From Bradyrhizobium sp. CB1717 (lineage in GTDB: Bacteria > Pseudomonadota > Alphaproteobacteria > Rhizobiales > Xanthobacteraceae), in contig NZ_CP121666.1 in assembly GCF_029714325.1 (NCBI RefSeq), forward strand, positions 992,001 to 1,056,000: 64,000 nt of DNA, in the 5' to 3' direction. How positions within the stretch are numbered: position 1 is the first letter of the stretch; every line of letters begins with the position of its first letter. A program made the translations under genes and the position numbers. This document shows positions 6,887-29,510 of the stretch, piece after piece. Below the pieces are notes generated by a model. The model searched no databases. It was not told where the DNA came from and saw only the letters and a program-made list of their open reading frames with translations.

Positions 6887-7396
6887 TCACCCGCCGCTCG
6901 ACTCTCTATCAGCGCGCTGGTCCGCGCGCTTACAAATTAAGTCCTCGTAATTCTTGGGGCTAAACTCCTTCAGGCGGTCTAGCGCACGCTCCGCCTCGGC
7001 GGTGTTGCTGCGACGCCGTTTGACCCCTTTAATCACCTCTGCGAGCCGCCCCATTGCGGTTGCTGCTGGCTTGGATGCCGTGCGCATGGCGGGTTTAGGT
7101 TCTTCGTTGAGGTCCAGCTTGAGGTCCTCCTTGAGGTCCGTCACGAGCGTGTTGAGTTTGGCCTTGTCCTCATCTTTGAAAGCGTTTTCGAGCTCCCTCA
7201 CCAGCGTCACCAGCGTCAAGAGCTTCTCCTTGAGCTCTCTATCGGCACTGAATAAAGTTTCGGCTAAGCCGAACTCTTCGCTTAGCGCTTTATCGTATAT
7301 CGCGTGAATGCTCGATGCAATGTCCTGCGTCACCGAGCCGCTGAGTGGCGCAAAAAATGGAAAACTGAACCAGGAGAACCAATTAGGGTTTGACAT
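6887..7396 (-). CDS. hypothetical coiled-coil protein behind a sigma-54 promoter
   Basis: About 169 residues starting MSNPNWFSWFSFPFF, an aromatic N-terminus. A long charged helical region follows (LKEKLLTLVTLVRELENAFK, DEDKAKLNTLVTDLKEDLKL), likely a coiled coil, then a basic segment GVKRRRSNTAEAERALDRLK. A GGAGAGG ribosome-binding site sits directly before one ATG (7402) and at the right distance from a second (7396), so 7396 is preferred. No family is recognised; some phasin-like character is possible. A consensus -24/-12 promoter lies about 50 nt upstream, so the gene is probably activated in symbiosis or nitrogen limitation. It stands alone, with IS debris upstream. Confidence 0.6.
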   Translation of the reverse strand: MSNPNWFSWFSFPFFAPLSGSVTQDIASSIHAIYDKALSEEFGLAETLFSADRELKEKLLTLVTLVRELENAFKDEDKAKLNTLVTDLKEDLKLDLNEEPKPAMRTASKPAATAMGRLAEVIKGVKRRRSNTAEAERALDRLKEFSPKNYEDLICKRADQRADRESSGG

Positions 7397-7443
7397 TGAC
7401 ATCCTCTCCACCGAAATGTGGCGTTCTTCCTCAGGTGTACTCG

Positions 7444-7459
7444 AGCAATTGGCGTGCCA
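7444..7459 (-). promoter_or_regulatory. sigma-54 promoter (-24/-12) for the 6887-7396 gene
   Basis: Read on the minus strand: TGGCACG-CCAA-TTGCT, an exact match to the RpoN consensus TGGCACG-N4-TTGCW with GG-N10-GC spacing. Transcription would start near 7433, giving a leader of about 35 nt with a good ribosome-binding site. No TGT-N10-ACA NifA site was found within about 250 nt upstream, where an ISL3 remnant begins, so the activator is unknown. Confidence 0.8.
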
Positions 7460-7526
7460 ATCGGTCTGGTCTTGATGACTCCGTAGAAAGTACAATTAGG
7501 TAGGTTGTCGTTCCGGATGCCGCCGT

Positions 7527-14957: not shown

Positions 14958-16480
14958 GTCGACCGTGAAGAACGTTGATCATGAGGTCTGTTGACGGGAT
15001 GACCAGGCGCCGGCGAACAGGAAGGCGCAGCAGATCCGGACAAACAAAGTCGTGAGCCAGAGGATCAGAAGCCGGAAGTTGTAGCCCGCGGCGGCAAGGA
15101 CCGCGTTGGGGGCGTCGCCGCGGGTGCCGGCGAGATGATTTCGGTTCATCCGGTGCTCATTCTTGAGATGGCCTATCACCGGTTCGACCGCGGATCGGCG
15201 TCGGAAGGCGCGTTTGATTGCTGCGGTCACGCCACGCTTCTGGCCGGCGACATAGACCTTGAAGATCTTGTCTTTCGGCGCGTTGTGACCGCGATAGCCA
15301 GCATCGGCAACGATCCTGGTCAGGCAAGCGCCGACGCTGGCCTCGATCTCGGGAATGACAGTCGCGAGCGTGTGTCCGTCATACGGATTGCCCGGCAACG
15401 CTTTCACATGGGCGACAAACTGGCCGCCCTTGCAGCGATCAACGGGCGTGGCGACACTCACCTTCACGCCGAACTCGTAGGGCTTGTGAGCTTTTCCCTT
15501 ACCGATGCATTCGACCTCCGGCGCGTGCAACGAATAAATTTTCTTGCCGCGCTGCCGTTGCCGCTGTTCGCGGACCTGCCGGGCCAGCGACAGCGGCAAC
15601 GCAAAGACGTCCTCCAGCTGCGGCCGATCCGCGATCTTGCGACCAATATCGCGGATCACGCGGCCCAGCATGGTCCTAATCGTGCGCAAGGCGCGGTTCG
15701 CCCGATTGAAGTGCTTGGCGTGGGCGTAGCGCTGATGTCGGATCAGTGCGATCTTGCCGACGCGGACGTAGGATTGGCGCAGCTCCGCACCAACCTCTCG
15801 CGCGCCCGATGCATCAGTCGAGCATCGGTCGGGAATGCGATCGCCTTCTCCTGCACCGTGGTGTCGACGATGACCTGGGTGAAGTCGGTGGGTTTCGCCG
15901 CGCCCAGCCGCACCGCGGCAGAGAGGCTCTCCTGAACCAATACCGCAAGGCGATCCTCGCCCATCCGTTGCCGCCAGCGCGTCAGTGAGGAGCGGTCGAA
16001 CACCAGCCGGTGCTGGAAGAACTCTTCGCCGCAAAGCAGCTGATAGTAGGGATTTTCGACCCAGCGCTCGCACAACCCTTCGTCCGAGAGGTCGTGCATG
16101 TGCTTGAGGATGGCGAGCCCAACCATCAAGCGGGTCGGCAATGGCGGCCTGCCGGGATCATCGTCATAGACCGCGCCGAACCGGTCTTCGAGGAACCGCC
16201 AGTCGATCGAGCCCGACAGTCTGACCAGCGCATGGTCCGGATCGACGATTTGATCGAGCCTCGCCTTGAACAGATCGTTCTGTCCGCTCTCCCGCCGCGC
16301 CTTCGGCCGCATTGCAATTGCCCGTCGTTGATTAGCCCGCCGCGACAGAATCACAGCGATCGCCCAAGAGCAATTTGCAAGAAACTGCGGGCTCACCCGC
16401 CGAAATCCTGCGAACAGAACCATGTCTGTTCGCCAAAAATCGATTCTCTCTCAACGGCTTGCGTGTTCTTCACAACCGAC
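14958..16480 (-). mobile_element. IS5-family element, copy 1 (1523 bp)
   Basis: Ends GTCGACCGTGAAGAAC on the left and GTCGGTTGTGAAGAAC on the right (reverse complement). It has the same length as copy 2 at 21014-22536 and appears identical apart from one end position. No target duplication is visible (left flank CCAACCA, right flank AAATCAGCC), so recombination between copies or an adjacent deletion has probably changed one flank. Partial copies lie at 26518-27180 and 29188-29510. Confidence 0.9.
14979..16423 (-). pseudogene. IS5-family transposase in two overlapping frames
   Basis: The N-terminal part (15743-16423) has RPKARRESGQNDLFKARLDQ, LPTRLMVGLAILKHMHDLSD and FTQVIVDTTVQEKAIAFPTD, which holds the first catalytic Asp. 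The C-terminal part (14979-about 15800) has SLHAPEVECIGKGKA, NPYDGHTL, VADAGYRGHN (second Asp) and AVEPVIGHLKNEHRM (Glu). Homology crosses from one frame to the other by a -1 shift near 15790. Copy 2 has the same shift, so it is either an old mutation carried by moving copies or a programmed frameshift. Confidence 0.85.
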
Positions 16481-16483
16481 AAA

Positions 16484-16499
16484 TCAGCCATAGCTCGGC
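16484..16499. repeat. remnant inverted-repeat end shared with the 27181-27245 palindrome
   Basis: AATCAGCCATAGCTC, directly after the right end of IS5 copy 1, is identical to the outer part of each arm of the palindrome at 27181-27245. It is probably a leftover end of another IS. Confidence 0.55.
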
Positions 16500-16537
16500 G
16501 AAACCCAGGACGGCCTGCCATTTCTAACCTGGAGACG

Positions 16538-18514
16538 TCATTCACGGTGGATACCCACGGGCATTGCGCGTCGGTCGAAATAGCCTCCAGGGAACGCGGT
16601 CGTTGCGGGCATTTGCTCATATGGATGCCAGAGGGGAAGGCCAATCAGCCGTCCATCGAGTCGTATGATCAGTCTGCGAGCGGTCATGTCTTCTATTGCC
16701 GCGTCGATCTCAGCCTGTATTGCATTCGCCGTCGCCAGCCGTTTGCGCAGGAGCGTTTCTGGCACGCCTTCATCCGCGGCCAGAAGAATTTCGCGCTTGA
16801 GGCCCTTCACACGGTGTTTGCGCTCCACTGCAATGGCACGCGTGTCCTCGACGGTTAGCTCTTCGCCGCTGTCACGCATCCACAGCATGGGTAGCTTCCG
16901 CTCATACCAAGATCTTTGCCAGGCATCGACAGCCAGGGTAACAGCCTGCAGCCCCGGGCGGCGGTTCGCGTCGCCAGCTGCGTAGTGACCGCCGACATCG
17001 TTGTCTTCACTGTCTTCGAAGTAATAAACCTGATCCGCGAGCTCGATCTCCGACAACGGATAGACGTAGCTATATGCGCGGGCCGGGAGCAGTTTCAGGC
17101 CGTATTTGTCGGCTGCGTAATGATAGGGGCTATAGCGCTGGTACCGCAATCGCACTGTACGTCCTGGCTGCAGATGATGCAACAGCGGCAAACAAGCGGC
17201 CATTTCCGAATACCATGCGTCACTCTCGCCCGGGAAACCCCACAGCACACTCCAACTCACCCGCACGCCGTACTGACGGCACCATTTCAAGAGCTGAACA
17301 TTATGCGCTGCTGTCGTTCCTTTACCCATTAGCTTCAAAATACGGGTGTCCAGGCTTTCGATACCTGGCTGGATCCAGCGGATGCCAGCGCTGGCCAACT
17401 TCTCTACTTCGTGGCGCTTCAGATTCGCTTTGACTTCGAAAAAGATCGCGAGCTTCCTAGGCATTGCGGTGAGGTGGGGCAGCGCTTTTTCGAAGTAGTC
17501 AAGGGCTAGTATATTGTCGACTGCTTCGATACGCGACGAGCCGTAACGCGTCGACATTTCAATCATTTCCTCTACAGCCTGCTCGGCGGGTTTCTGACGG
17601 TAGGTGATCGATCCGCCGTTCAGCCCGCAGAACGTGCAGGGACTGCGCTCGCCCCACCAGCAGCCACGAGAGAACTCCATCGGCAGTCCGGGATGGATAC
17701 GGTCAGCGTAGAGCGATCGCTCAAGTTCAGCGAAATAGTCCGAGAAATCGGGCAACGGCAGATCTCGCATGTTTTTAATCACCGCCCGGGGCACCGAATC
17801 ACGCATCGGCGTCGCAGGATAGCCGGCCTTGCGGTGCGCCGGACCGAACACGCCAAATGGCAGGTCGGCCGAGGGAATGTCTTTGCCACGATGAAGGATG
17901 TCGTAACACAGCGCCCCCATCAGTGCGTCGGCCTCGCCGGATACGATGTAATTGACCCATGGGAAACGAGCGTGAGTGGTTCGCCCCATCACTGACTCGC
18001 AGTTTGCTCCGCCCATGAGAGTAACAACGCCAGGTGAGCGCTCGCTCAATCGACGCAGCAGCGCGAGCGAAGGGACGTGCTGGCCAAAGGTAGAGGTGCA
18101 TCCGACGATGGCCGGACGATGCATCAGCACCTTGTCCGCTGTCCAATCGATGAACTCCCCCATAAGCAACCGCAGTTTTTGCAAATTCGCGCGACTCTCG
18201 GCCATGCCTTTCCCAGCGTGCATCGGCGTGCGATTGAAGTACCTGTCGAGAAAAGCGTCGTGGTCAGGCTCAAACTCGGGAAAGGCGACGCCTGCGAACA
18301 GCCAATCGACAAGCGCTTCCTCAGGCGGGCTGCTCTCGAGGAGATGATAATCAGGAAGGCCTATGTATTCCATAAACCAAATGTTAGCGCATACTATGCT
18401 GGATCGCAGTCCGGCCCGTGTCAGCACCGACTTCAGTAAACCAAGCGCCAGCGATGGCCGTTCAACCGCCGACATCGGCATGTTGACCAAAACGATCGGC
18501 ACATCGGTGCTCAT
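16538..18514 (-). CDS. B12-binding radical SAM RiPP C-methyltransferase
   Basis: About 658 aa, matching RiPP-maturation radical SAM protein 1 (class B, cobalamin-dependent C-methyltransferase type). The N-terminal part is Rossmann-like (IVLVNMPMSAVERPSLALGL; IVGCTSTFGQHVPSLALLRR; TLMGGANCES), typical of a cobalamin-binding domain. The [4Fe-4S] motif FSRGCWWGERSPCTFCGLNG lies near residue 280, with the long Cys spacing of this family. EVKANLKRHEVEKL and GIRWIQPGIESLDTRIL follow as TIM-barrel strands. The preferred start is ATG 18514 with a GAAGGGAAG site; a GTG two codons earlier is also possible. Third gene of the Nif11 operon; it would methylate unactivated carbons of the precursor core. Confidence 0.9.
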   Translation of the reverse strand: MSTDVPIVLVNMPMSAVERPSLALGLLKSVLTRAGLRSSIVCANIWFMEYIGLPDYHLLESSPPEEALVDWLFAGVAFPEFEPDHDAFLDRYFNRTPMHAGKGMAESRANLQKLRLLMGEFIDWTADKVLMHRPAIVGCTSTFGQHVPSLALLRRLSERSPGVVTLMGGANCESVMGRTTHARFPWVNYIVSGEADALMGALCYDILHRGKDIPSADLPFGVFGPAHRKAGYPATPMRDSVPRAVIKNMRDLPLPDFSDYFAELERSLYADRIHPGLPMEFSRGCWWGERSPCTFCGLNGGSITYRQKPAEQAVEEMIEMSTRYGSSRIEAVDNILALDYFEKALPHLTAMPRKLAIFFEVKANLKRHEVEKLASAGIRWIQPGIESLDTRILKLMGKGTTAAHNVQLLKWCRQYGVRVSWSVLWGFPGESDAWYSEMAACLPLLHHLQPGRTVRLRYQRYSPYHYAADKYGLKLLPARAYSYVYPLSEIELADQVYYFEDSEDNDVGGHYAAGDANRRPGLQAVTLAVDAWQRSWYERKLPMLWMRDSGEELTVEDTRAIAVERKHRVKGLKREILLAADEGVPETLLRKRLATANAIQAEIDAAIEDMTARRLIIRLDGRLIGLPLWHPYEQMPATTAFPGGYFDRRAMPVGIHRE

Positions 18515-18624
18515 CTTCACTTCCCTTCAAGTAGCTATGCGGATGGTGTACGATGATGCTGAGATCCGCACCGCAATCGAGACCGGTGCCTGCTCCTTAC
18601 GCTTTGATGCGGGCCCTAGCTTTG

Positions 18625-18762
18625 TCACACAATTGCGGGCCACAGGCTCGCGATAGCCGCGATCACTTCAACGTCTTCCTCTTCCAAAGGCGTGTGGCAG
18701 CGCCTATCACAGCGCAGGCGACTTCTGCGATCGCTCCGCGACGCTGCCGACCGGCATGACAC
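18625..18762 (-). CDS. possible 45-aa ORF between the two radical SAM genes
   Basis: A GTG-initiated frame ending EEEDVEVIAAIASLWPAIV, an acidic then hydrophobic tail that looks protein-like, after an Arg-rich first half. It fills most of the 300-nt gap between the epimerase and methyltransferase genes. In another frame the same gap encodes SLKELRILASENVGPGVMPV, so it could equally be a frameshifted remnant of a longer small protein. No ribosome-binding site is convincing. Confidence 0.25.
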   Translation of the reverse strand: MSCRSAASRSDRRSRLRCDRRCHTPLEEEDVEVIAAIASLWPAIV

Positions 18763-18820
18763 CAGGCCCCACGTTCTCGGAGGCTAAGATCCGCAGCTCC
18801 TTCAGGCTGACCTCTCGTCC

Positions 18821-20407
18821 TTAACGCGATTCGGCATAATCCACTCGCATATTGGGAGCCGCGCGGTTGGCCGCTTCGATGCGAACCGCGGGGTCCTCGC
18901 TGGTCTGCGAAACGAGCTGATCGTCAAGGTCCTCCGCAATTACTCCGGCAGTGTACAGTTGGTCCAGGAGGTCAGCGACTGCGAGCACGCTCGTTCCGTC
19001 AGCTGCAATCCGCGCGACCAGCTCCGACGCTGTGCAGTTGCCGCACGCGATTAGATCGCCAACGGAGATCGGACCGACGTTGTCGGCCACCCGGTGTTGC
19101 ATGTTGCGCGAGCGAAGATTAAAGCCTCGAGTCCCTGCCTCGTATTGAAGGTCTCTGCGGAAGCGGATCGGCAAGTCGGGAGGGGGGCATTCGAACATAT
19201 GTTGATCGATTATTCTTTGCAGGCCGTCACGGAACTCGTTGGGCGTCTCGAAGAAACGTTCAGCCACAATACGGTAGCCGAGAGGCCAGCGGTTGCTGCC
19301 AGGCACCGGCGTCACTAGCTGCACACGTCCCCTCAGCATATTCACAAGGAATCCGGAAACGCAGGCGATCGTCGTATGATTGCGTTCCGGCACTCCAATT
19401 GCATTGTCTTTGTCGACTCCTTTAAGCCTCTCCTTTCGTTCACGCGCGCGCCCAGCGAACGCTTTTGCAGTTAGCGCGCCCCTGCCCTGGATGATAAGTT
19501 CGACGCCCATTAGCTGCTCAGGCGAAAAGGCGGCGTGGATCTGATTAAGGTGAGTTGTGCTCAGCACGGAGAAGCGATTTGTCACAGTACGATATTGCCT
19601 AAACAGCTCGAGCACGCGCTGTGTGAGCGCCGTATCTTTAAGCGGGGCGGCCGTCGTTGTTTGCGGCAGTGCCCCCGTGATCTGACAGTAATCAAACAGA
19701 AAGCGATCATAGTGCGGGTTGTCCATAGGATCCGTGGCCCAGTAGCAGAATCCGGTTCGGGCGGCCGAGCCAAACATCTCGTTCGCTACCCCGACCACGC
19801 CACGCCAGAGTTCCGCATGCTCTTCGTTGTATTCGAAATACCCTTTGAAACGACCGGCCGAGAGGCCGCAGAACCAGCAACCGACGGTGCAGCCTTCGCT
19901 CAGCTCGAAAGCTATTACGGGGTGCGTGACCGACGACGCCGATCCTCCTAATTCGCAGTTGCAGCGGCGGATTTGGCGTTCGCGCCAGGCATGAAAGCGA
20001 GGGTTGACCGTCGACATTTTGCCTTCGTCGCGCAAGAGGTCGCGATGACGCAACATCTCGCGTATATACTCGTCCCAGATCACAGCCAGCGGCCAGGACG
20101 CACACTCCGGCTTAAAGCGGTATTTCAGGTGAGTACCGCGCCAGAGCGGCAGCATTTCCATTGGATCAACTTCGATACCGTAACGCCGGCTTACCAATCG
20201 AGGGGCGTTAACATCTTCCGAAAGCTCCCTGCGGAACTTCATGTCCCCTACCAGCCGCTCCATGAAGCGCTTGATGTGTGACAAGGTGCGCAACTGCTCG
20301 GGGGTGCGCCGGTCAAAGATCTGTCGATAGTGTTCCGCAGCAACGGGGCGCACTACCTTAGTGTGCGCTGAGCTACATTCTTGCAGGCGGGATGGTGCAA
20401 CTTTCAT
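18821..20407 (-). CDS. radical SAM RiPP-maturation amino-acid epimerase
   Basis: 528 aa. The CxxxCxxC cluster motif is ELSEGCTVGCWFCGLSAGRF near residues 165-185, a phrase typical of the PoyD/OspD-type peptide epimerases. The N-terminal 100 residues (IFDRRTPEQLRTLSHIKRFM) resemble a precursor-binding extension, and RRYGIEVDPMEMLPLW follows. A C-terminal helical domain ends near ADLLDQLYTAGVIAEDLDDQ. The start has a GAAGGTGAT site. It lies 78 nt downstream of the Nif11 precursor on the same strand. The expected reaction is radical conversion of L- to D-residues in the core by abstraction of the alpha hydrogen. Confidence 0.88.
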   Translation of the reverse strand: MKVAPSRLQECSSAHTKVVRPVAAEHYRQIFDRRTPEQLRTLSHIKRFMERLVGDMKFRRELSEDVNAPRLVSRRYGIEVDPMEMLPLWRGTHLKYRFKPECASWPLAVIWDEYIREMLRHRDLLRDEGKMSTVNPRFHAWRERQIRRCNCELGGSASSVTHPVIAFELSEGCTVGCWFCGLSAGRFKGYFEYNEEHAELWRGVVGVANEMFGSAARTGFCYWATDPMDNPHYDRFLFDYCQITGALPQTTTAAPLKDTALTQRVLELFRQYRTVTNRFSVLSTTHLNQIHAAFSPEQLMGVELIIQGRGALTAKAFAGRARERKERLKGVDKDNAIGVPERNHTTIACVSGFLVNMLRGRVQLVTPVPGSNRWPLGYRIVAERFFETPNEFRDGLQRIIDQHMFECPPPDLPIRFRRDLQYEAGTRGFNLRSRNMQHRVADNVGPISVGDLIACGNCTASELVARIAADGTSVLAVADLLDQLYTAGVIAEDLDDQLVSQTSEDPAVRIEAANRAAPNMRVDYAESR

Positions 20408-20485
20408 GGATCACCTTCATGGCTCCTGCGCACCGGCACGCTATTGATTGAGCATGAGCCGATGCGCTGAGCTAGGAAAACGTGT

Positions 20486-20842
20486 TCAAATCAGGACAAC
20501 AACTGCCTCCGCTACTGCTGCGACGGTACTGGCCACTTCCGCGTCTTGTACCGTGGTCGTGGTAACCTCCGCTGCCTCCACAACAGAGGTAGCAACTTCA
20601 GCTGTCTGCTCAATTGAAGTCGCGGTGTCGCTCGCCACCGCGTCGAACTGCTTGTTCGTCGCCGCCTGTATGCTAGTTGAGCGGAGATAATTTTTAGCTT
20701 CGTCAAGCGTGAAGCTGTAGCCGTGGCTATTTCCGCTCGCTACAAGCGACCCAAGGCCTGTGGCACTCGGTCTTACCGTTTCGAGCAGATTAGCGTCATT
20801 TGACAGATCATTGACGAATCGCTCCAACTCAGCTCGTGACAT
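20486..20842 (-). CDS. Nif11-leader RiPP precursor with decapeptide-repeat core
   Basis: 118 aa. Residues 1-60 follow the Nif11-type leader: RAELERFVNDLSNDANLLET, then GYSFTLDEAKNYL. No Gly-Gly or Gly-Ala cleavage site is seen. From residue 71 to the end the sequence falls into five ten-residue units in exact register: SDTATSIEQT, AEVATSVVEA, AEVTTTTVQD, AEVASTVAAV, AEAVVVLI. The tail is almost only Ala, Val, Thr, Glu and Ser, the composition preferred by peptide epimerases and C-methyltransferases in proteusins. GGAGGATGAGAG precedes the ATG. It is first of three minus-strand genes, and a -24/-12 promoter plus NifA-type site lies upstream. The Val/Thr-rich tail is the probable modified product; the cleavage point is unknown. 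Confidence 0.85.
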   Translation of the reverse strand: MSRAELERFVNDLSNDANLLETVRPSATGLGSLVASGNSHGYSFTLDEAKNYLRSTSIQAATNKQFDAVASDTATSIEQTAEVATSVVEAAEVTTTTVQDAEVASTVAAVAEAVVVLI

Positions 20843-20917
20843 CTCTCATCCTCCGGATTGCTCAACGTCGTCAAACGCCCCGACCGAACTAGGGATCGGT
20901 AATGACATCAAGAACGA

Positions 20918-20933
20918 TGCAAGCGCCACGCCA
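20918..20933 (-). promoter_or_regulatory. sigma-54 promoter for the Nif11 RiPP operon
   Basis: Read on the minus strand: TGGCGTG-GCGC-TTGCA. The invariant GG and GC are separated by exactly 10 nt, and the only deviations from TGGCACG-N4-TTGCW are two bases in the -24 box. Transcription should start near 20907, giving a leader of about 65 nt before the precursor ATG. Confidence 0.78.
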
Positions 20934-20993
20934 ACTGCAAGTTGCTGAGATTCGCATTGTTTTCGCTACGCAGCGTCGCCTTGTTCGATACGA

Positions 20994-21009
20994 TGTTTGG
21001 AACCTGACA
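20994..21009. promoter_or_regulatory. NifA-type upstream activator site (TGT-N10-ACA)
   Basis: TGTTTGGAACCTGACA is an exact TGT-N10-ACA NifA-binding consensus. It is centred about 95 nt upstream of the predicted sigma-54 transcription start, within the 80-150 nt range usual for NifA sites. It ends 4 nt before the left end of IS5 copy 2, which inserted just beyond it and left it intact. Confidence 0.75.
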
Positions 21010-21013
21010 AATG

Positions 21014-22536
21014 GTCGACCATGAAGAACGTTGATCATGAGGTCTGTTGACGGGATGACCAGGCGCCGGCGAACAGGAAGGCGCAGCAGATCCGGACAAA
21101 CAAAGTCGTGAGCCAGAGGATCAGAAGCCGGAAGTTGTAGCCCGCGGCGGCAAGGACCGCGTTGGGGGCGTCGCCGCGGGTGCCGGCGAGATGATTTCGG
21201 TTCATCCGGTGCTCATTCTTGAGATGGCCTATCACCGGTTCGACCGCGGATCGGCGTCGGAAGGCGCGTTTGATTGCTGCGGTCACGCCACGCTTCTGGC
21301 CGGCGACATAGACCTTGAAGATCTTGTCTTTCGGCGCGTTGTGACCGCGATAGCCAGCATCGGCAACGATCCTGGTCAGGCAAGCGCCGACGCTGGCCTC
21401 GATCTCGGGAATGACAGTCGCGAGCGTGTGTCCGTCATACGGATTGCCCGGCAACGCTTTCACATGGGCGACAAACTGGCCGCCCTTGCAGCGATCAACG
21501 GGCGTGGCGACACTCACCTTCACGCCGAACTCGTAGGGCTTGTGAGCTTTTCCCTTACCGATGCATTCGACCTCCGGCGCGTGCAACGAATAAATTTTCT
21601 TGCCGCGCTGCCGTTGCCGCTGTTCGCGGACCTGCCGGGCCAGCGACAGCGGCAACGCAAAGACGTCCTCCAGCTGCGGCCGATCCGCGATCTTGCGACC
21701 AATATCGCGGATCACGCGGCCCAGCATGGTCCTAATCGTGCGCAAGGCGCGGTTCGCCCGATTGAAGTGCTTGGCGTGGGCGTAGCGCTGATGTCGGATC
21801 AGTGCGATCTTGCCGACGCGGACGTAGGATTGGCGCAGCTCCGCACCAACCTCTCGCGCGCCCGATGCATCAGTCGAGCATCGGTCGGGAATGCGATCGC
21901 CTTCTCCTGCACCGTGGTGTCGACGATGACCTGGGTGAAGTCGGTGGGTTTCGCCGCGCCCAGCCGCACCGCGGCAGAGAGGCTCTCCTGAACCAATACC
22001 GCAAGGCGATCCTCGCCCATCCGTTGCCGCCAGCGCGTCAGTGAGGAGCGGTCGAACACCAGCCGGTGCTGGAAGAACTCTTCGCCGCAAAGCAGCTGAT
22101 AGTAGGGATTTTCGACCCAGCGCTCGCACAACCCTTCGTCCGAGAGGTCGTGCATGTGCTTGAGGATGGCGAGCCCAACCATCAAGCGGGTCGGCAATGG
22201 CGGCCTGCCGGGATCATCGTCATAGACCGCGCCGAACCGGTCTTCGAGGAACCGCCAGTCGATCGAGCCCGACAGTCTGACCAGCGCATGGTCCGGATCG
22301 ACGATTTGATCGAGCCTCGCCTTGAACAGATCGTTCTGTCCGCTCTCCCGCCGCGCCTTCGGCCGCATTGCAATTGCCCGTCGTTGATTAGCCCGCCGCG
22401 ACAGAATCACAGCGATCGCCCAAGAGCAATTTGCAAGAAACTGCGGGCTCACCCGCCGAAATCCTGCGAACAGAACCATGTCTGTTCGCCAAAAATCGAT
22501 TCTCTCTCAACGGCTTGCGTGTTCTTCACAACCGAC
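21014..22536 (-). mobile_element. IS5-family element, copy 2 with target duplication
   Basis: 1523 bp, same content as copy 1, with the same split transposase frames (21035-22129 and 21799-22479). The 6-bp sequence CAAATG is present on both sides (21008-21013 and 22537-22542), so this copy moved into place as a unit. It separates the Nif11 operon from the divergent secretion genes, which were originally about 590 nt apart. Confidence 0.9.
21035..22479 (-). pseudogene. IS5-family transposase, copy 2, frameshifted
   Basis: Same two overlapping frames and same -1 shift as in copy 1. All catalytic motifs are present, divided between the frames. Confidence 0.85.
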
Positions 22537-22961
22537 CAAATGGTCACGACAAACGAGTTTGGTTGAGAGGCAGCGCGCCCGATCGGGTATCCGGAGTGCT
22601 CCTACTAGATTTGGGAGTCTTCAGCCTTCTAGATTAGAACTATTAACCGAGCGAGGTGAAGAGACAGTAGTAAGCTGGCCAATCCTCACCAGCGCAAACC
22701 ACATTCGGCTGTGACGGCATTACTGCATCGAACGTTTTCAGTTGGCCATAGCCCGCTTCTTGGTGCCCGAGCCATAATGGCAATCCTGAGAGAAAGGCTG
22801 GTCCACACTTGGCGCGAGTATACACACTGCTGGCGGCCGCCGTTGGGCGGGGGCACCTCCTTGAGGCAATCGCCGCGAGGTGCAGCCGGGCTATCGGATA
22901 TTCCGTGGAGTTGATCACAGTTCCGGTGACTTTCCCCGCGCACGTAGTGGCGTCGGTCATT
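22537..22961. other. upstream region of the secretion operon
   Basis: No gene. It is the distal part of the original divergent intergenic region shared with the Nif11 operon. A GG-N10-GC sigma-54 motif and a TGT-N10-ACA site were looked for and not found here, so the control of the transporter genes is unclear. Confidence 0.5.
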
Positions 22962-24707
22962 ATGCTGGCCAAGATATGGCGATGCGCGCCGGCGACGGCC
23001 GGCCGAGAGAATCAGCCGCCGCGCACGCACGAGCTTCTCCCTGCCTGCCGCGGCGTACTCGTTGGACTCGGCCTGATCACCGCTATGCTGAACGTTCTGT
23101 ATCTGACAGGCGCGTTCTTCATGCTTGAAGTGTACGACCGCGTCGTACCAAGCCGCAGTGTGCCGACGTTGATCGGTCTCACGGTGCTGGCAGCCGGCCT
23201 CTATCTATTGCAGGCCTTCCTGGACATTCTGCGCGGACGCATTCTCATCCGTATGGGCGAGTGGCTTGACCGCATGTTCTCGGCGCGAACCTACGACGTC
23301 GTCGCGCGCTTGCCGCTGTGCGCTCGGGCGAGCGGGGACGGACTGCAGCCGGTGCGCGACCTTGACCAAGTGCGCAGCTGCCTCTCCGGGCTTGGCCCGA
23401 CGGCTCTGTTCGACCTGCCCTGGATTCCATTCTATCTCACAATCTGCTTCCTGTTCCATCCAATGGTCGGGATCACGGCGCTGGTCGGCTCGCTGGTGCT
23501 GATTTCGTTAACCCTTTTCACCGAGCGGCTGACACGCTCGCAGACGAAGGAGACCGCTCAGCGCGTGGCGCAGCGCAACGCACTGGCCGCCGCTAGCCGC
23601 CGAAACGCCGAGGTGTTGAAGGCCATGGGCATGCGCGGGCGCTTCGCCACGCGGTGGGCCGAGGTCAACGACAGCTACATCGCCTCTCAGCGCCGCACCG
23701 CTGATATCGCTGCCGGCTTCGGCTCCACTTCCAAGGTCCTGCGCATGGTCCTGCAATCGGCTGTGCTTGGCGTCGGCGCTTATCTGGTTATTCGCCAAGA
23801 GGCAACCGCCGGAATAATCATCGCCGTGGCCATCCTCACCTCACGCGCACTCGCCCCCGTCGAGCTGATCATCGCCCACTGGAGAAGCTTGATTGGTGCT
23901 CGCCAGAGCTGGACACGTCTGCGGCAGTACTGGGCGCAGGTCCAGGCCGAGGAAGAGAAAACACCACTGCCGCCGCCGTGCACAGCCTTCACCGTCGAGG
24001 CCGTCTCCGTGCTGCCGCCGGGCGAGCAGCGCGTGGTGGTGTATGAAGCTTCCTTCGCACTGAAGCCTGGACAGGGCCTCGGCATCGTCGGCCCGAGCGC
24101 CTCGGGCAAGTCGTCCCTGGTGCGGGCGATGGTTGGCGTGTGGGCGCCTGTGGGCGGCAAGGTGCGGCTCGATGGCGCCGCCCTCGAACAGTGGAACTCG
24201 GAGTCGCTCGGCCGACATATCGGTTATCTACCGCAGAACATCGAGCTGTTCGCGGGCACGGTAGCACAAAACATCGCCCGGTTCGATCCCGACGCCGAGG
24301 CCGAGGCGACGATCGCCGCCGCAAGTGCGGCCGGTGTGCACGAGATGGTGTTGCGACTGCCGAACGGCTACGACACGCAAGTTGGCGAGGACGGCTCGAT
24401 AATCTCGGCTGGGCAGCGCCAGCGCATCGCGCTTGCGCGGGCGCTTTACCGCGATCCGTTCCTGGTCGTGCTCGACGAACCGAGCTCCAATCTCGACGTT
24501 GAGGGCGACGAGGCCCTGACACGAGCCGTGATGGCAGTGCGAGCGCGGCGCGGCATTGTCATCGTCGTCACACATTGCACTACCGCGCTCGCCGCCGTGG
24601 ACCAACTGATGGTGATGTCTGAGGGGCGCGTGCAAGCGCTTGGGCCGAAGGATCGGCTGCTGGCCAAGATGACCCAGCGGTCGGACCGGTGCCGCTTAAC
24701 GTCGTGA
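22962..24707 (+). CDS. type I secretion ABC transporter (PrtD type)
   Basis: 581 aa from the chosen ATG. The region LLPACRGVLVGLGLITAMLN and LTGAFFMLEVYDRVVPSRSV is the signature start of PrtD/RsaD-type permease-ATPases, so the frame extension to 22809 is ignored. Six-helix membrane domain, then Walker A GPSASGKSS (about 377), signature ISAGQRQR (about 482), Walker B LVVLDEP (about 500) and H-loop VVTH. No N-terminal C39 peptidase domain is present, unlike the usual exporters of leader-bearing RiPPs. It precedes the HlyD gene by 12 nt. With HlyD and an outer-membrane TolC-like protein encoded elsewhere it would export a substrate straight out of the cell. Confidence 0.9.
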   Translation: MLAKIWRCAPATAGRENQPPRTHELLPACRGVLVGLGLITAMLNVLYLTGAFFMLEVYDRVVPSRSVPTLIGLTVLAAGLYLLQAFLDILRGRILIRMGEWLDRMFSARTYDVVARLPLCARASGDGLQPVRDLDQVRSCLSGLGPTALFDLPWIPFYLTICFLFHPMVGITALVGSLVLISLTLFTERLTRSQTKETAQRVAQRNALAAASRRNAEVLKAMGMRGRFATRWAEVNDSYIASQRRTADIAAGFGSTSKVLRMVLQSAVLGVGAYLVIRQEATAGIIIAVAILTSRALAPVELIIAHWRSLIGARQSWTRLRQYWAQVQAEEEKTPLPPPCTAFTVEAVSVLPPGEQRVVVYEASFALKPGQGLGIVGPSASGKSSLVRAMVGVWAPVGGKVRLDGAALEQWNSESLGRHIGYLPQNIELFAGTVAQNIARFDPDAEAEATIAAASAAGVHEMVLRLPNGYDTQVGEDGSIISAGQRQRIALARALYRDPFLVVLDEPSSNLDVEGDEALTRAVMAVRARRGIVIVVTHCTTALAAVDQLMVMSEGRVQALGPKDRLLAKMTQRSDRCRLTS

Positions 24708-24719
24708 GGAGGCGAGCCA

Positions 24720-26024
24720 ATGAAGCGCGAGCCTGTGGACGTGGTTCCGCTCTCGATCCGCCAGCACATGCGCGCCGCCCTCGCGGGGGTCATTGTGGTC
24801 GCCGGCGGCATCGGCGCCTGGGCAGCCACAACCGAACTTTCCGGCGCCGTCATTGCGTCCGGCATGCTTGTGGTCGACAGCCATATCAAGAAGGTGCAGC
24901 ACCCGACGGGCGGCGTTGTCGCCCAACTCAACGTGCGCGAGGGCGCCGATGTGAAGGCCGGTGACGTGCTGGTGCGGCTTGATGAGACCGTAACGCGCGC
25001 CACTCTCCTGATCCTCATTAAGAGCTTGACCGAACTGGCGGCGCGCCAAGCTCGGCTCGAGGCAGAGCGCGACGACGAAAATTACCTTGACTTTCCCGCC
25101 AAGCTTGCCGCGCGCGCCTTAGATCCGAACGTGGCGCGGGTGATCGCGGGCGAGCGCAAGCTATTTGAGCTTCGCCGCGCCGCTCGCGCCGGCAAGAAAG
25201 CGCAACTCAACCAACGCATTGACCAACTTCTGCTGCATATCCGCGGGATGGATGAGCAGATTCAGGCGAAAAATCACGAGACAACGTTGATCAGCCGTGA
25301 GTTGATGCGCGTCCGCGAGTTGCAGAGCAAGCACCTCGTCCAGCGCGTCACGGCACTCGAGCGCGACGCAGCGCGCCTGCACGGTGAACGTGGCGCGCTG
25401 CTCGCCGCGATCGCCGAAGCCAAAGGCCGGATCACCGAGGCTACGCTGCAGATCATGCAGATCGATCAGGATCTCCGCATCGAGGTGGGACGGGAACTCG
25501 CCGAGACTCGTGCGAAAACCGCGGAACTGATCGAGAAACGAGTGACCGCTGAGGATCAGCTCAAGCGTGTGGACATCCGCGCGCCACAGGACGGCACGGT
25601 ACATCAGCTAGCAGTCCACACTGTCAGCGGTGTCATCAGTGCTGGCGAGCCAATCATGCTAATAGTTCCCGCCCGAGACTCCCTCGTTGTAGAGGTGCAC
25701 ATCGCTCCGCAGGAAGTCGATCGCGTATCAGTGGGCAAGCCCGTGCTGTTGCGTTTCACAGCTCTCAACCAGCGCACTACTCCGCAGCTCAACGGCGAAG
25801 TGATCCATGTGTCCGCCTATGTCACGGTAGACGAGAAGAGCGGAGCAAGCTTCTACTTGGCCCGCATTGCCGTACCAAGCGGGCAGATCGCACGCCTAAA
25901 GAGCGTAAAGCTGCTCGCCGGGATGCCAGTCGAAGCCTTCATTCAAACCGATCAGCGCACAGTCATGTCCTACCTTGGCAAGCCGCTCTCGGATCAGCTG
26001 ATGCACGCTTGGCGCGAGCGGTAA
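24720..26024 (+). CDS. HlyD-family type I secretion adaptor
   Basis: 434 aa. One N-terminal membrane helix (AALAGVIVVAGGIGAWAATT), then a lipoyl half-motif (VKKVQHPTGGVVAQLNVREG-type region), a long coiled-coil hairpin (about 110-260: ELMRVRELQSKHLVQRVTAL), and the C-terminal barrel with RAPQDGTVHQL and LAGMPVEAFIQTDQRTVMSY, the classic end of this family. A GAGGAGG site precedes the ATG. It bridges the inner-membrane ABC transporter and a TolC-like outer-membrane channel, which is not encoded in the window. No RTX-type substrate gene is nearby; the Nif11 peptide is the only obvious cargo candidate. Confidence 0.9.
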   Translation: MKREPVDVVPLSIRQHMRAALAGVIVVAGGIGAWAATTELSGAVIASGMLVVDSHIKKVQHPTGGVVAQLNVREGADVKAGDVLVRLDETVTRATLLILIKSLTELAARQARLEAERDDENYLDFPAKLAARALDPNVARVIAGERKLFELRRAARAGKKAQLNQRIDQLLLHIRGMDEQIQAKNHETTLISRELMRVRELQSKHLVQRVTALERDAARLHGERGALLAAIAEAKGRITEATLQIMQIDQDLRIEVGRELAETRAKTAELIEKRVTAEDQLKRVDIRAPQDGTVHQLAVHTVSGVISAGEPIMLIVPARDSLVVEVHIAPQEVDRVSVGKPVLLRFTALNQRTTPQLNGEVIHVSAYVTVDEKSGASFYLARIAVPSGQIARLKSVKLLAGMPVEAFIQTDQRTVMSYLGKPLSDQLMHAWRER

Positions 26025-26282
26025 AGGCGCACGGCAGTGATAGTTCGGAAGTGCGCAGCCGAGGCGTCGGGAAACAAGGCGATTTTCATCCGCGAAGCTC
26101 CTCCGACCCGGCATCAGGGCAATGTGCCGGGCTCTGTTGAATTTCTGAACAGATCGGCGTTGCCCACCTTGAGCCGGTAGGCTCGGGGTGCTGATTCCAC
26201 AAAGGAGAGCAACGCCATGACGAGAGATATCACACCGGCTGGTTCGCCGGCGACTAAAGCGTGATGGCATTAAGTTCGATAG
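26025..26282. other. IS debris after hlyD
   Basis: A start-like context AAGGAGAGCAACGCC-ATG at about 26203-26220 opens MTRDITPAGSPA and stops at once at the boundary of the IS630 fragment, so it is probably the first codons of a lost transposase. Confidence 0.4.
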
Positions 26283-26517
26283 CCTGAATTTTTAAGGTAG
26301 TTGGCGCATTCCGCGGAGGTGAAGGCATCGAGTGCGCGCCCGATTGCGGCGCAGACCGCATCGACGGTTCGTGCGGCGGCTTTGCGGAGCAGGTGCTTGA
26401 GCTTGGTAAAGACCTGTTCGATCGGGTTCAGGTCGGGCGAGTATTTTGGCAGGAAGAAGAGTTTGGCGCCGACCGAACGGATGAGCTGGCGCACTACTTT
26501 GCTCCTGTGGCTGGCGA
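26283..26517 (-). pseudogene. IS630-family transposase, C-terminal fragment
   Basis: SHRSKVVRQLIRSVGAKLFF, LPKYSPDLNPIEQVFTKLKH and CANYLKNSGY are the end of an IS630 transposase, including the last catalytic Glu. The upstream part is replaced by IS5 copy 3, whose end supplies an apparent but false start codon. Confidence 0.8.
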
Positions 26518-27180
26518 GTCGACCGTGAAGAACGTTGATCATGAGGTCTGTTGACGGGATGACCAGGCGCCGGCGAACAGGAAGGCGCAGCAGATCCGGA
26601 CAAACAAAGTCGTGAGCCAGAGGATCAGAAGCCGGAAGTTGTAGCCCGCGGCGGCAAGGACCGCGTTGGGGGCGTCGCCGCGGGTGCCGGCGAGATGATT
26701 TCGGTTCATCCGGTGCTCATTCTTGAGATGGCCTATCACCGGTTCGACCGCGGATCGGCGTCGGAAGGCGCGTTTGATTGCTGCGGTCACGCCACGCTTC
26801 TGGCCGGCGACATAGACCTTGAAGATCTTGTCTTTCGGCGCGTTGTGACCGCGATAGCCAGCATCGGCAACGATCCTGGTCAGGCAAGCGCCGACGCTGG
26901 CCTCGATCTCGGGAATGACAGTCGCGAGCGTGTGTCCGTCATACGGATTGCCCGGCAACGCTTTCACATGGGCGACAAACTGGCCGCCCTTGCAGCGATC
27001 AACGGGCGTGGCGACACTCACCTTCACGCCGAACTCGTAGGGCTTGTGAGCTTTTCCCTTACCGATGCATTCGACCTCCGGCGCGTGCAACGAATAAATT
27101 TTCTTGCCGCGCTGCCGTTGCCGCTGTTCGCGGACCTGCCGGGCCAGCGACAGCGGCAACGCAAAGACGTCCTCCAGCTG
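26518..27180 (-). mobile_element. IS5-family element, copy 3 (truncated)
   Basis: The left 663 bp of the same element as copies 1 and 2, including the transposase C-terminal half (206 codons). It is broken at 27180 after CGTCCTCCAGCTG, where the 27181-27245 palindrome begins. Confidence 0.88.
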
Positions 27181-27245
27181 GAGCTATGGCTGATTCTGGG
27201 TGACGCCGCCTGATCAGGCGCGTCACCCAGAATCAGCCATAGCTC
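27181..27245. repeat. near-perfect 65-bp palindrome (two abutting IS ends)
   Basis: Left arm GAGCTATGGCTGATTCTGGG and onward to TGACGC, right arm its inverse, with one base difference near the centre at TGATCA. The outer part recurs at 16484-16499. It interrupts IS5 copy 3, so it is best read as the two inverted ends of another IS whose interior is gone. Confidence 0.8.
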
Positions 27246-27268
27246 CTCTCAGAATGATTCAACTATGA

Positions 27269-29131
27269 ATGCACGTGGTTGACCTAACTAAGCCGAGCAC
27301 ATCAAAGTGCACTTCGCAAGCCACAGGCGCGGAGTTGCCCTTGGCCAAACTCATTGAAACGAAGCGTCGGTTAGCCGCTATCTTTGCAGCGGACGTCGAA
27401 GGTTACAGCCGCCTCATGGGAACCGACGAGGTCGCTACACTAAGCGCGCTTACAGCCCTCCTTGAAATTCTTGACGGGCTGATTGCAACCCATGGGGGCC
27501 GCGTCGCCAACACCGCTGGGGACAGCGTATTGGCAGAGTTTGGTAGCGCGGTTGATGCCGTCCGCTGTGCCATGGAGGCTCAGGAAGCATTGGCTAAGGC
27601 TAATGGGCCCGTTCCAGAACGCCGTCGGGTGAACTTCCGCATCGGGGTGCATGTAGGTGACATTATGTTCCGAGCCGGCGACTTGTTTGGCACGGGTGTG
27701 AACATTGCGGCTCGACTACAGGCGCTTGCGAAGGCTGGTGGGGTCTGCATCTCTGGTGTGACCTATGACCAGGTGCGAAATATACTGCCGCTGGAGTTCA
27801 CAGACCTCGGCGCGCAATCCGTCAAAAACCTCGAGGAGCCCATACGAGTCTATGAGGTCAAGATGCAGCTTGAGTCTGCATCGTCAACGCCGAAGGACAT
27901 GCTCAACCAACGTAGAGCCCTGGTTCTGCCGGACAGACCTTCTATCGCGGTACTACCTTTCGAGAACATGTCCGCCGATCCCGAGCAGGACTACTTCGCG
28001 GACGGCATGGTTGAGGACATCATAACGGAACTGTCCCGGTTTAAGTCGTTGTTTGTGATCGCCCGGAATTCGAGCTTCACTTACAAGGGAATGGCCGTTG
28101 ATATCAAGCGGGTAGGACGAGAACTCGGTGTTCGGTATGTGCTGGAAGGCAGCGTTCGACGGTCCGGAGGGCGAGTTCGCATTACAGGTCAGCTAATTGA
28201 TAGCGCAACGGGTGTGCACCTTTGGGCAGACCGTTTCGATGGTTCGAAGGAGGACGTATTCGACTTGCAAGACCGCGTGACGGCGAGTGTGGTAGGGCAG
28301 ATCTTCTCTCGCGTTCAGCTTGACGAAGAGGAACGCGCCAATCGTAAACCGACCACGGATCTCGAAGCCTACGACTATTATTTGCGAGGCATGTCAAGAG
28401 TTTGGAAGTGGAATAAGGATGATAGTGAGAGAGCTTTGGCGCTGTTCTCGAAGGCAGTAGAATTGGACGACAACTTCGCGCTTGCGCACGCAATGTTGAG
28501 CAATGTCTACACATTTCGCAAACAGATCCGGGTCATGGACGATCCTGACCAGGAAACAAAGAGGGCAGTTCATCACGCACAACGCTGCCTCGAACTTGGG
28601 CGAGAAGACGGTGTAACACTGGTACTAGGTGGCTTCAGTCTCGCCTATATGGCAAATGAAGTGAAGTTCGGTGCCGACTGCATCGCGCGTGGTCTCTCAC
28701 TGAATCCAAATTTGGCGTGGGGATGGCTCTGTAGTGGTTGGGTGAATTCGTTCTTGGGCGCTCCTCAAACGGCCCTGGAGCACTTGGCTCAAGCTGAGCG
28801 CCTTAGTCCTCGCGATCCCAGTCTCCCCCAGATTAAGCTGGCTTGTGCACTTGCCCACTTCGTAGCTGGCCGATATGAGGACGCTATCCGATTGACCGAA
28901 GAGTTGCCAAATTTGCTCGGCGCTTGGCGGATCAAAGCAGTTAGTTACGCGATGAGCGGGGATCTCTATAGGGCAGCGGACGCCGGAAAGAAGGTGCTCC
29001 AGCTCGATCCGACGGCGCGAGCTTCAGTACTCGCTCAGTGGCTACCTCTTCAACGACCGGAAGACCGGGAGCGGTACAGAAAGGGGCTTTTAGCAGCAGG
29101 TATTCCAGACCTAGCCCTCATGAGAGGCTGA
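27269..29131 (+). CDS. class III adenylate/guanylate cyclase with TolB-like and TPR domains
   Basis: 620 aa. The cyclase domain (about 32-190) has the metal-binding Asp in IFAADVEGYSRLMGTDE, the second Asp in NTAGDSVLAEFGSA, and FRIGVHVGDIMFRAGDLFGT. A TolB/FlgO-like domain follows (SIAVLPFENMSADPEQDYFA, about 225-370), then TPR-like repeats to the end (LALFSKAVELDDNFALAHAM). This architecture is abundant in Bradyrhizobium. It would make cAMP or cGMP in response to an unknown input. It sits alone between IS remnants; a start further in, at about residue 26, would fit family length better. Confidence 0.88.
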   Translation: MHVVDLTKPSTSKCTSQATGAELPLAKLIETKRRLAAIFAADVEGYSRLMGTDEVATLSALTALLEILDGLIATHGGRVANTAGDSVLAEFGSAVDAVRCAMEAQEALAKANGPVPERRRVNFRIGVHVGDIMFRAGDLFGTGVNIAARLQALAKAGGVCISGVTYDQVRNILPLEFTDLGAQSVKNLEEPIRVYEVKMQLESASSTPKDMLNQRRALVLPDRPSIAVLPFENMSADPEQDYFADGMVEDIITELSRFKSLFVIARNSSFTYKGMAVDIKRVGRELGVRYVLEGSVRRSGGRVRITGQLIDSATGVHLWADRFDGSKEDVFDLQDRVTASVVGQIFSRVQLDEEERANRKPTTDLEAYDYYLRGMSRVWKWNKDDSERALALFSKAVELDDNFALAHAMLSNVYTFRKQIRVMDDPDQETKRAVHHAQRCLELGREDGVTLVLGGFSLAYMANEVKFGADCIARGLSLNPNLAWGWLCSGWVNSFLGAPQTALEHLAQAERLSPRDPSLPQIKLACALAHFVAGRYEDAIRLTEELPNLLGAWRIKAVSYAMSGDLYRAADAGKKVLQLDPTARASVLAQWLPLQRPEDRERYRKGLLAAGIPDLALMRG

Positions 29132-29187
29132 GGGCGGTCCTGCCAGGTGGCGGCGATTCTAGGTTGAACATCGGGCGGCGTCGATCA

Positions 29188-29510
29188 GTCGACCGTGAAG
29201 AACGTTGATCATGAGGTCTGTTGACGGGATGACCAGGCGCCGGCGAACAGGAAGGCGCAGCAGATCCGGACAAACAAAGTCGTGAGCCAGAGGATCAGAA
29301 GCCGGAAGTTGTAGCCCGCGGCGGCAAGGACCGCGTTGGGGGCGTCGCCGCGGGTGCCGGCGAGATGATTTCGGTTCATCCGGTGCTCATTCTTGAGATG
29401 GCCTATCACCGGTTCGACCGCGGATCGCGTCGGAAGGCGCGTTTGATTGCTGCGGTCACGCCACGCTTCTGGCCGGCGACATAGACCTTGAAGATCTTGT
29501 CTTTCGGCGC
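29188..29510 (-). mobile_element. IS5-family element, copy 4 (truncated)
   Basis: The left 323 bp of the element. A one-base deletion at about 29428 (GATCGCGTCGG instead of GATCGGCGTCGG) shifts the transposase frame. It ends at TTTCGGCGC, fused to IS3 sequence. Confidence 0.88.

Follow-up and report, generated by a model that had tools for sequence, protein, structure and literature searches.

A predicted Nif11-leader RiPP operon of Bradyrhizobium sp. CB1717 is probably under NifA/sigma-54 control

Results

The locus joins a putative Nif11-leader precursor to two radical SAM enzymes

The window analysed here is a 64,000-nucleotide stretch of the Bradyrhizobium sp. CB1717 genome (positions 992001-1056000 of a 9,232,581-base chromosome). 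Its minus strand carries a putative Nif11-leader precursor gene and two radical SAM enzyme genes, headed by a predicted sigma-54 promoter and a putative NifA site, and its plus strand carries a probable exporter. The features are as follows (window coordinates; in the text, handles in G denote genomes and handles in L denote loci):

14958..16484, no strand assigned: second copy of the insertion sequence at 21014, downstream of the operon (repeat comparison)
16538..18520, minus: B12-dependent radical SAM C-methyltransferase, 660 aa (TIGR03975, 726.4 bits; cut-off 281.85)
18821..20407, minus: PoyD-type radical SAM amino-acid epimerase, 528 aa (TIGR04517, 567.7 bits; cut-off 325)
20486..20842, minus: putative Nif11-leader precursor, 118 aa, with a Val/Ala/Thr-rich tail ending AEAVVVLI (PF07862 and homologues)
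20489..20635, minus: putative core, residues 70-118 (boundary set by eye, from comparison with GG-bearing relatives)
20918..20933, minus: predicted sigma-54 -24/-12 promoter TGGCGTGGCGCTTGCA (GG-N10-GC exact; kept in orthologues)
20994..21009, minus: putative NifA upstream activator site TGTCAGGTTCCAAACA (TGT-N10-ACA exact; pattern scan)
21014..22541, no strand assigned: insertion sequence (bounds from the repeat copy, 99.9% identical to 14958-16484)
22809..24707, plus: PrtD-type type I secretion ABC transporter, probable exporter (TIGR01842, 703.7 bits; same neighbour in G197)
24720..26024, plus: HlyD-type membrane fusion protein, probable exporter (TIGR01843, 372.8 bits; likewise in G197)

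The precursor matched PF07862 at 27.9 bits (cut-off 23.8) and scored 19.7 bits against TIGR03798, under the cut-off of 32.3. A profile search up to E 0.01 gave TIGR03798 only, and thus no nitrile-hydratase-like leader. The frames of the precursor, epimerase and C-methyltransferase are all open in the window. An earlier note on this DNA had called the genes a modified RiPP operon, and for the enzymes this is borne out by the TIGR04517 and TIGR03975 family scores of the frames adjoining the precursor. We aligned the epimerase with 19 orthologues (hand-picked loci, frames of more than 400 aa only) and found that the CX3CX2C motif (C173/C177/C180) was invariant in 20/20 sequences and in 3/3 paralogues, as were C221 and C349, either of which may correspond to the hydrogen-donor cysteine of PoyD.

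Precursor homologues have in common the leader and a Val/Ala/Thr-rich tail, many with repeats such as AEVATTAV and ending AEAVVV..VLI, and the end of the core is kept among them. A double-Gly stands before the core in 27/33 precursor homologues. It is absent from the CB1717 precursor, where VASD stands in its place, from CCGUVB1N3 (G197), DOA9 and three more of the 33 homologues, and also from NGR234, S. americanum, S. meliloti pHRB800 and R. johnstonii 3841. The ABC exporter of the window gave no Pfam match to a C39 peptidase, and the exporter of G197, like that of CB1717, is PrtD-type without a peptidase; in M. helmanticense (L051), a GG precursor has a peptidase-type NHLM exporter with C39 downstream. 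This comparison, based on two strains, suggests that loss of the cleavage motif may accompany a change of exporter. A second sigma-54 promoter serving the exporter was considered and discarded, as the window scan (score >=13.4) found none upstream of 22809.

In G197 the same five genes lie side by side at 82-89% identity, with no match to the window transposase, and the C-methyltransferase match is split over two overlapping frames. In CB1717, the insertion sequence at 21014 separates the operon (minus strand) from the exporter genes (plus strand); it begins 4 nt past the activator site, which is intact. Two direct copies of the element flank the operon, an arrangement that we considered as a composite transposon and rejected: because operon and exporter adjoin without a transposase in G197, we read the CB1717 copies as later insertions. 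Many insertion sequences crowd the window (14958-29510 and 32349-63364), as in a symbiosis island. Copies or fragments lie at 14958, 21014, 26517 and 29186, with IS110, IS66, IS3 and IS1182 further on, and a group II intron maturase is also among the mobile elements. Despite this island-like load, the operon is located at 1.01 Mb, far from the nif region (7.9 Mb).

The operon has a -24/-12 element paired with a NifA-type site

NifA sites have the form TGT-N10-ACA and usually lie about 80-150 nt upstream. On re-reading 20933..20918 of the minus strand, we found the GG-N10-GC spacing previously claimed for TGGCGTGGCGCTTGCA to be exact. The exact TGT-N10-ACA site that the earlier note had placed about 95 nt above the predicted transcription start was likewise found there: TGTCAGGTTCCAAACA begins 76 nt before the -24 site, and its centre falls 94.5 nt ahead of ~20907, the start predicted from the -12 element at 20919. 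The precursor ATG is at 20842. The M. loti R7A paper, in the part available, prints the NifA site as TGT-N10-AGA. Elsewhere in the window, a second -24/-12 site with full score (TGGCACGCCAATTGCT, 7444-7459, minus strand) adjoins a 202-aa frame (6887-7495) that has no Pfam match, and no exact TGT-N10-ACA occurs within 200 nt of it.

We scanned the 9.23-Mb chromosome with a strict -24/-12 pattern (TGGCRYG-N4-TTGCW), using the reversed pattern as a control. The strict pattern alone gave 37 matches (control, 12), while TGT-N10-ACA alone gave 459 against 619 for its reversed control and is therefore uninformative taken alone. Such a common -24/-12 pattern and such an unenriched activator motif would be in keeping with a chance motif beside an ordinary promoter. 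However, both motifs at a gap of 45-75 nt occurred at seven sites versus none in the reversed control, with ~0.06-0.1 expected from the motif densities if independence is assumed; this paired architecture and the five-genus conservation described below make a chance origin extremely improbable. The seven paired sites are those of the RiPP operon, nifH, nifD and four others, including one before a NifU-like frame and one before a DnaJ-like frame. The six besides the RiPP operon all fall within 7.65-7.94 Mb, the region that holds nifH (7.915 Mb) and nodA (7.668 Mb). The earlier note had proposed to check whether the site scores like those of nifH and nifD: on an ad-hoc scale the operon site reached 14.4, slightly below nifH (16.4) and nifD (15.4), and the paired architecture is common to all three.

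The predicted promoter is conserved in orthologous loci

Conservation of the predicted sites in orthologues is stronger evidence than motif counts within CB1717 itself. A survey of 265 Bradyrhizobium genomes for the epimerase found it in 28, which yielded 30 loci with upstream DNA (G088 and G052 have two locus copies each). In 30/30 of these loci, the best-scoring site in the 1.5 kb upstream was a -24/-12 element with a score of at least 13.9, and in 30/30 the Nif11 precursor starts 82-98 nt past it; the loci are not independent, since one 122-nt promoter sequence recurs unchanged in seven of them and another four form two identical pairs. To gauge the background, we sampled 700-nt stretches at random from six 20-kb segments around the window and the nif region; 5.3% of them reached 13.9, so that about double this fraction is expected per 1.5 kb. 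Paralogous PoyD-type epimerase loci (34-37% identity) had a sigma-54 site in 0/3 cases.

Outside the genus, the -24/-12 site was present in 17/21 loci of Mesorhizobium, Aminobacter, Sinorhizobium and Rhizobium, which are a sample of the existing loci; of 60 matching plasmid records, nine taken by match were included, plus pRL10. It was missing from L060, L062, L064 and L066, where the L062 contig begins just 190 nt before the gene, and no such site lies upstream in R. johnstonii 3841 or R. laguerreae FB206.

The activator site is more variable. Within 200 nt, it was exact in 11/30 Bradyrhizobium loci, matched with one mismatch in 18/30 and was absent from one (L035); the nearest relative of CB1717 (L018) has one-mismatch matches only. 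By our own arithmetic, a one-mismatch match is expected by chance about once per 200 nt, and we therefore do not count such sites by number as evidence, although the positions that they have in common (-76/-77, -69 and -58) are suggestive. Exact activator sites occurred in 7/17 non-Bradyrhizobium loci with a -24/-12 site, while L058, L104 and L105 had none even at one mismatch. Many loci also have a second conserved dyad, TGTCGGCAAGTTGACR, at -58 (58 nt before the -24 site). This dyad matches TGT-N10-ACA exactly in certain loci of Mesorhizobium and Sinorhizobium and ends in ACG in Bradyrhizobium. On S. meliloti pHRB800 (L109 674-2951), four tandem annotated Nif11 precursors are followed by one epimerase and one C-methyltransferase; three of these precursors were scanned, and the sigma-54 element with an exact activator site lies before the first only.

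Loci also differ in their enzymes. No C-methyltransferase match was found near the epimerase in part of them (for example L071, L072, L073, L077 and NGR234), which leaves epimerization as the modification common to the loci. In two Mesorhizobium loci (L068 11523-12401; L051 9508-10386), the genes for epimerase and C-methyltransferase are separated by one for a GNAT acyltransferase, which has no match in the window and is found as fragments in several frames in Bradyrhizobium loci.

Epimerase matches fell in more than one frame in 11/30 Bradyrhizobium loci (L036-L046). The same two frame breaks recur in L042-L046 (including the USDA110-like G027), the epimerase is also broken in L039 and L041, whose promoter sequence is that of L042-L046, and the breaks in L036-L038 and L040 are different ones. 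NifA-dependent transcription of these loci thus need not give a finished peptide. Such broken frames, seven of them (L039 and L041-L046) behind a single promoter sequence, together with the abundance of insertion sequences around the CB1717 operon, would be in keeping with a relic whose regulation is real and whose product is no longer made or important. For CB1717 we consider this fairly unlikely: all three of its genes are open, no radical SAM cysteine varies among the 20 aligned intact sequences and the end of the core is kept.

Published data connect orthologues to RpoN, NifA and bacteroids

In free-living microaerobic cells of strain DOA9, RpoN mutants are reported to express less nif11 (BDOA9_RS35350), a gene listed with the site TGGCACGCTCCTTGC (PMC13207237, in the part available). 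In our DOA9 locus (L019/L070), TGGCACGCTCCTTGC precedes the orthologous precursor. The nif11 promoter is outside the set tested by EMSA, and a 'hemolysin' gene is listed with a sigma-54 site of its own (same part of PMC13207237). We considered this 'hemolysin' as the exporter and rejected it, as what follows its site is a divergent frame of 181 aa that has no Pfam match. That frame corresponds to L070 7846-8391 on the minus strand.

We took G027 to be USDA110 and placed its sites on a ruler of linear locus numbering that runs from the S9 peptidase (blr1971, 'putative peptidase') to NifA (between blr2036, fixR, and blr2038, fixA). This put nodA, which we assume to be blr2025, at 2025.3, and the operon's sigma-54 site at 1981.2 on the minus strand. 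Our locus mapping thus identifies bll1979-bll1981 as the probable USDA110 counterpart of the operon, and this mapped operon has an exact activator site and a -24/-12 element just upstream. In soybean nodules formed by a USDA110 nifA mutant, bll1979, bll1980 and bll1981 have log2 values of -5.6, -4.8 and -4.9 (a 28- to 49-fold drop), compared with -5.3 for nifH, and the available part of that source calls them hypothetical and lists no value for them in the nifH mutant (PMC4926349). Three further sites, at 1970.5 (+), 1991.2 (+) and 2040.7 (+), adjoin the nifA-dependent genes blr1971, blr1992 and blr2041. The remaining six of the ten G027 sites match no placeable gene of the nifA table as available, and the nifA-dependent blr1954, blr1964, bll2003-bll2004, bll2009, fixR and fixA, among others, have no site at the scan threshold.

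A sigma-54 promoter of this kind could also answer to a different activator, NtrC or DctD-like, and so serve a nitrogen starvation response rather than fixation. The degenerate activator site in many orthologues would accord with such an activator, as would the DOA9 data, which come from free-living microaerobic cells and concern RpoN rather than NifA dependence (PMC13207237, part available). In CB1717, however, the TGT-N10-ACA is exact, and the mapped USDA110 transcripts are lost in nifA nodules and have no listed value in the nifH mutant, though nifH nodules are nitrogen starved (PMC4926349, part available). We thus regard control by another activator as unlikely.

Another possibility is that NifA acts on the operon only indirectly, through the bacteroid state. 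In M. loti R7A, some genes need NifA2 in nodules and lack NifA promoters, according to the part of that work available, and the visible portion of its table of potential NifA operons has no operon of this type. By this precedent, the USDA110 nodule data may be partly indirect. Purely indirect control is nevertheless very unlikely, given that a -24/-12 element and an exact activator site lie directly upstream of both the CB1717 operon and the mapped USDA110 operon.

Orthologous precursor proteins have been detected in the bacteroid proteomes of two species. In M. huakuii 7653R, MCHK_12735 is a nodule-bacteroid protein of 12.54 kDa found at 0.50-fold in a hypE mutant (PMC10454058, in part); it is the L068 precursor, whose computed mass is the same. 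In R. johnstonii 3841, pRL100099 (14.45 kDa, pI 8.86) is raised 1.23 in gmcA-mutant bacteroids (PMC7105596, in part), and the L110 precursor computes to the same mass and pI. Strain 3841 lacks the -24/-12 site and has the precursor in its bacteroids, which points to another control there. Furthermore, in nodules of an M. huakuii abiEi mutant, a Nif11-like leader peptide (-6.00), a Nif11 protein (-4.35) and an epimerase (-4.46), all possible counterparts of the operon's genes, go down with nif genes (PMC8436566, in part). A table of Nif11 genes per strain gives none for B. diazoefficiens 113-2 (PMC7709874, in part), and one radical SAM gene, not mapped to the operon, is down at -4.07 in another study (PMC8305402, in part). 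These two sources, like the parts available of PMC11387232, PMC10434180, PMC4842269 and PMC10454721, held no decisive data on the operon.

Carriage of the operon tracks symbiosis genes

Within Bradyrhizobium, nodA was found in 28/28 carriers of the epimerase versus 111/237 non-carriers (Fisher p 3.5e-9), and full nifH in 27/28 versus 131/237 (p 6.6e-6), relatedness being ignored in both comparisons. Because sub-cut-off TIGR01287 matches occur in nearly all genomes, nifH was called among the 28 carriers from a TIGR01287 match at E 1e-135 or better; the carrier without full nifH (G108) had weaker matches only, the best at E 7.6e-53.

A scan that finds close relatives only returned 17 loci, all from Mesorhizobium, Bradyrhizobium, Sinorhizobium or Rhizobium. 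Of the plasmid records with a match, 58/60 belong to Sinorhizobium, Rhizobium, Mesorhizobium or Aminobacter, and the other two to Nostoc and Kovacikia. An order-wide search, in which rhizobia were thinly sampled, gave 2/397 genomes, both of one genus, and we base no conclusion on it. The operon adjoins nifHDK in two strains, Rhizobium sp. NXC14 and R. etli NXC12, where the first gene annotated beyond the epimerase is nifH, with nifD behind it; in two others, NGR234 and S. fredii CCBAU 83666, the first one annotated beyond nifS is the precursor gene. Precursors are also present in Bosea and an Enhydrobacter MAG, so that the family extends beyond rhizobia.

Discussion

Our preferred reading, to which we assign a probability of roughly 80%, is that the CB1717 operon is a RiPP operon under NifA/sigma-54 control. 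This is what the earlier note had proposed, and it is now supported by a motif pair common to nifH and nifD, by -24/-12 conservation in five genera, by RpoN dependence of the DOA9 orthologue and NifA dependence of the genes mapped in USDA110, and by precursor protein in bacteroids of two species; for CB1717 itself the argument is drawn from its DNA. Direct binding by NifA, the chemistry of the peptide, its export and its role toward the plant or other bacteria are what we infer from these findings.

If this reading is right, low oxygen, in bacteroids or in microaerobic nitrogen-fixing growth, would lead NifA to bind the TGT-N10-ACA site and contact RNA polymerase-sigma-54 at the -24/-12 element, so that precursor, epimerase and C-methyltransferase would be transcribed together with one another. 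The Nif11 leader would guide the modifying enzymes: the epimerase would convert L to D residues in the hydrophobic core, carbon-bound methyl groups would come from the B12 enzyme, and release of the peptide would fall to the type I exporter encoded nearby. A wider and much more tentative proposal, which we think possible and would not favour, is that rhizobia of at least five genera make such a D-amino-acid, partly C-methylated hydrophobic peptide in parallel with nitrogenase and secrete it into the symbiosome. Its target there might be the host plant cell, competing bacteria or the symbiosome membrane, and some Bradyrhizobium lineages, that of USDA110 for example, would have lost or changed it.

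Nif11 leaders were named for a link with nitrogen fixation that experiments have so far done little to fill in. In CB1717, a RiPP operon of this type has a nifH-like promoter, its -24/-12 site recurs in five genera and the precursors of two relatives appear in bacteroid proteomes. If NifA control holds, nitrogen-fixing bacteroids would make a modified peptide whose symbiotic role could be tested with existing strains, and which may be a bacteroid-specific peptide effector of the nitrogen-fixing symbiosis. In the open-licence literature, which does not include the 2007 USDA110 NifA regulon paper, we found no prior description of this operon. Its parts are of known kinds; what we did not see reported there is their combination, a predicted RiPP operon that belongs to the NifA regulon and is kept by five genera.

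The operon resembles several known systems in part. Proteusins such as polytheonamide have a PoyD-type epimerase, a B12 radical SAM C-methyltransferase, a Val/Ala-rich core and a nitrile-hydratase-like leader; the CB1717 operon likewise has both enzyme types and a Val/Ala-rich core, but its leader is not nitrile-hydratase-like and is probably Nif11. Closer in leader type are OspA/OspD and AvpA/AvpD of cyanobacteria, in which Nif11-leader precursors occur with PoyD-type epimerases. CB1717 resembles them in its TIGR04517 epimerase, which carries CX3CX2C, and in its probable Nif11 leader, and differs in being rhizobial, in its predicted sigma-54 promoter, in the C-methyltransferase present in some loci and in the double-Gly lost in CB1717. 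The Bradyrhizobium NifA and sigma-54 regulon includes nifH, nifD, fixA, fdxN, nrgA, nrgBC and groESL, in the portion of the literature available. The operon is like these members in having a -24/-12 element and TGT-N10-ACA at the usual distance, whereas its genes would make a modified peptide rather than nitrogenase parts. Finally, phazolicin and trifolitoxin are antirhizobial RiPPs of rhizobia (PMC9670871, in part); the predicted CB1717 product would, like them, be a RiPP from nodule bacteria, but unlike the CB1717 operon, they have azol(in)e chemistry.
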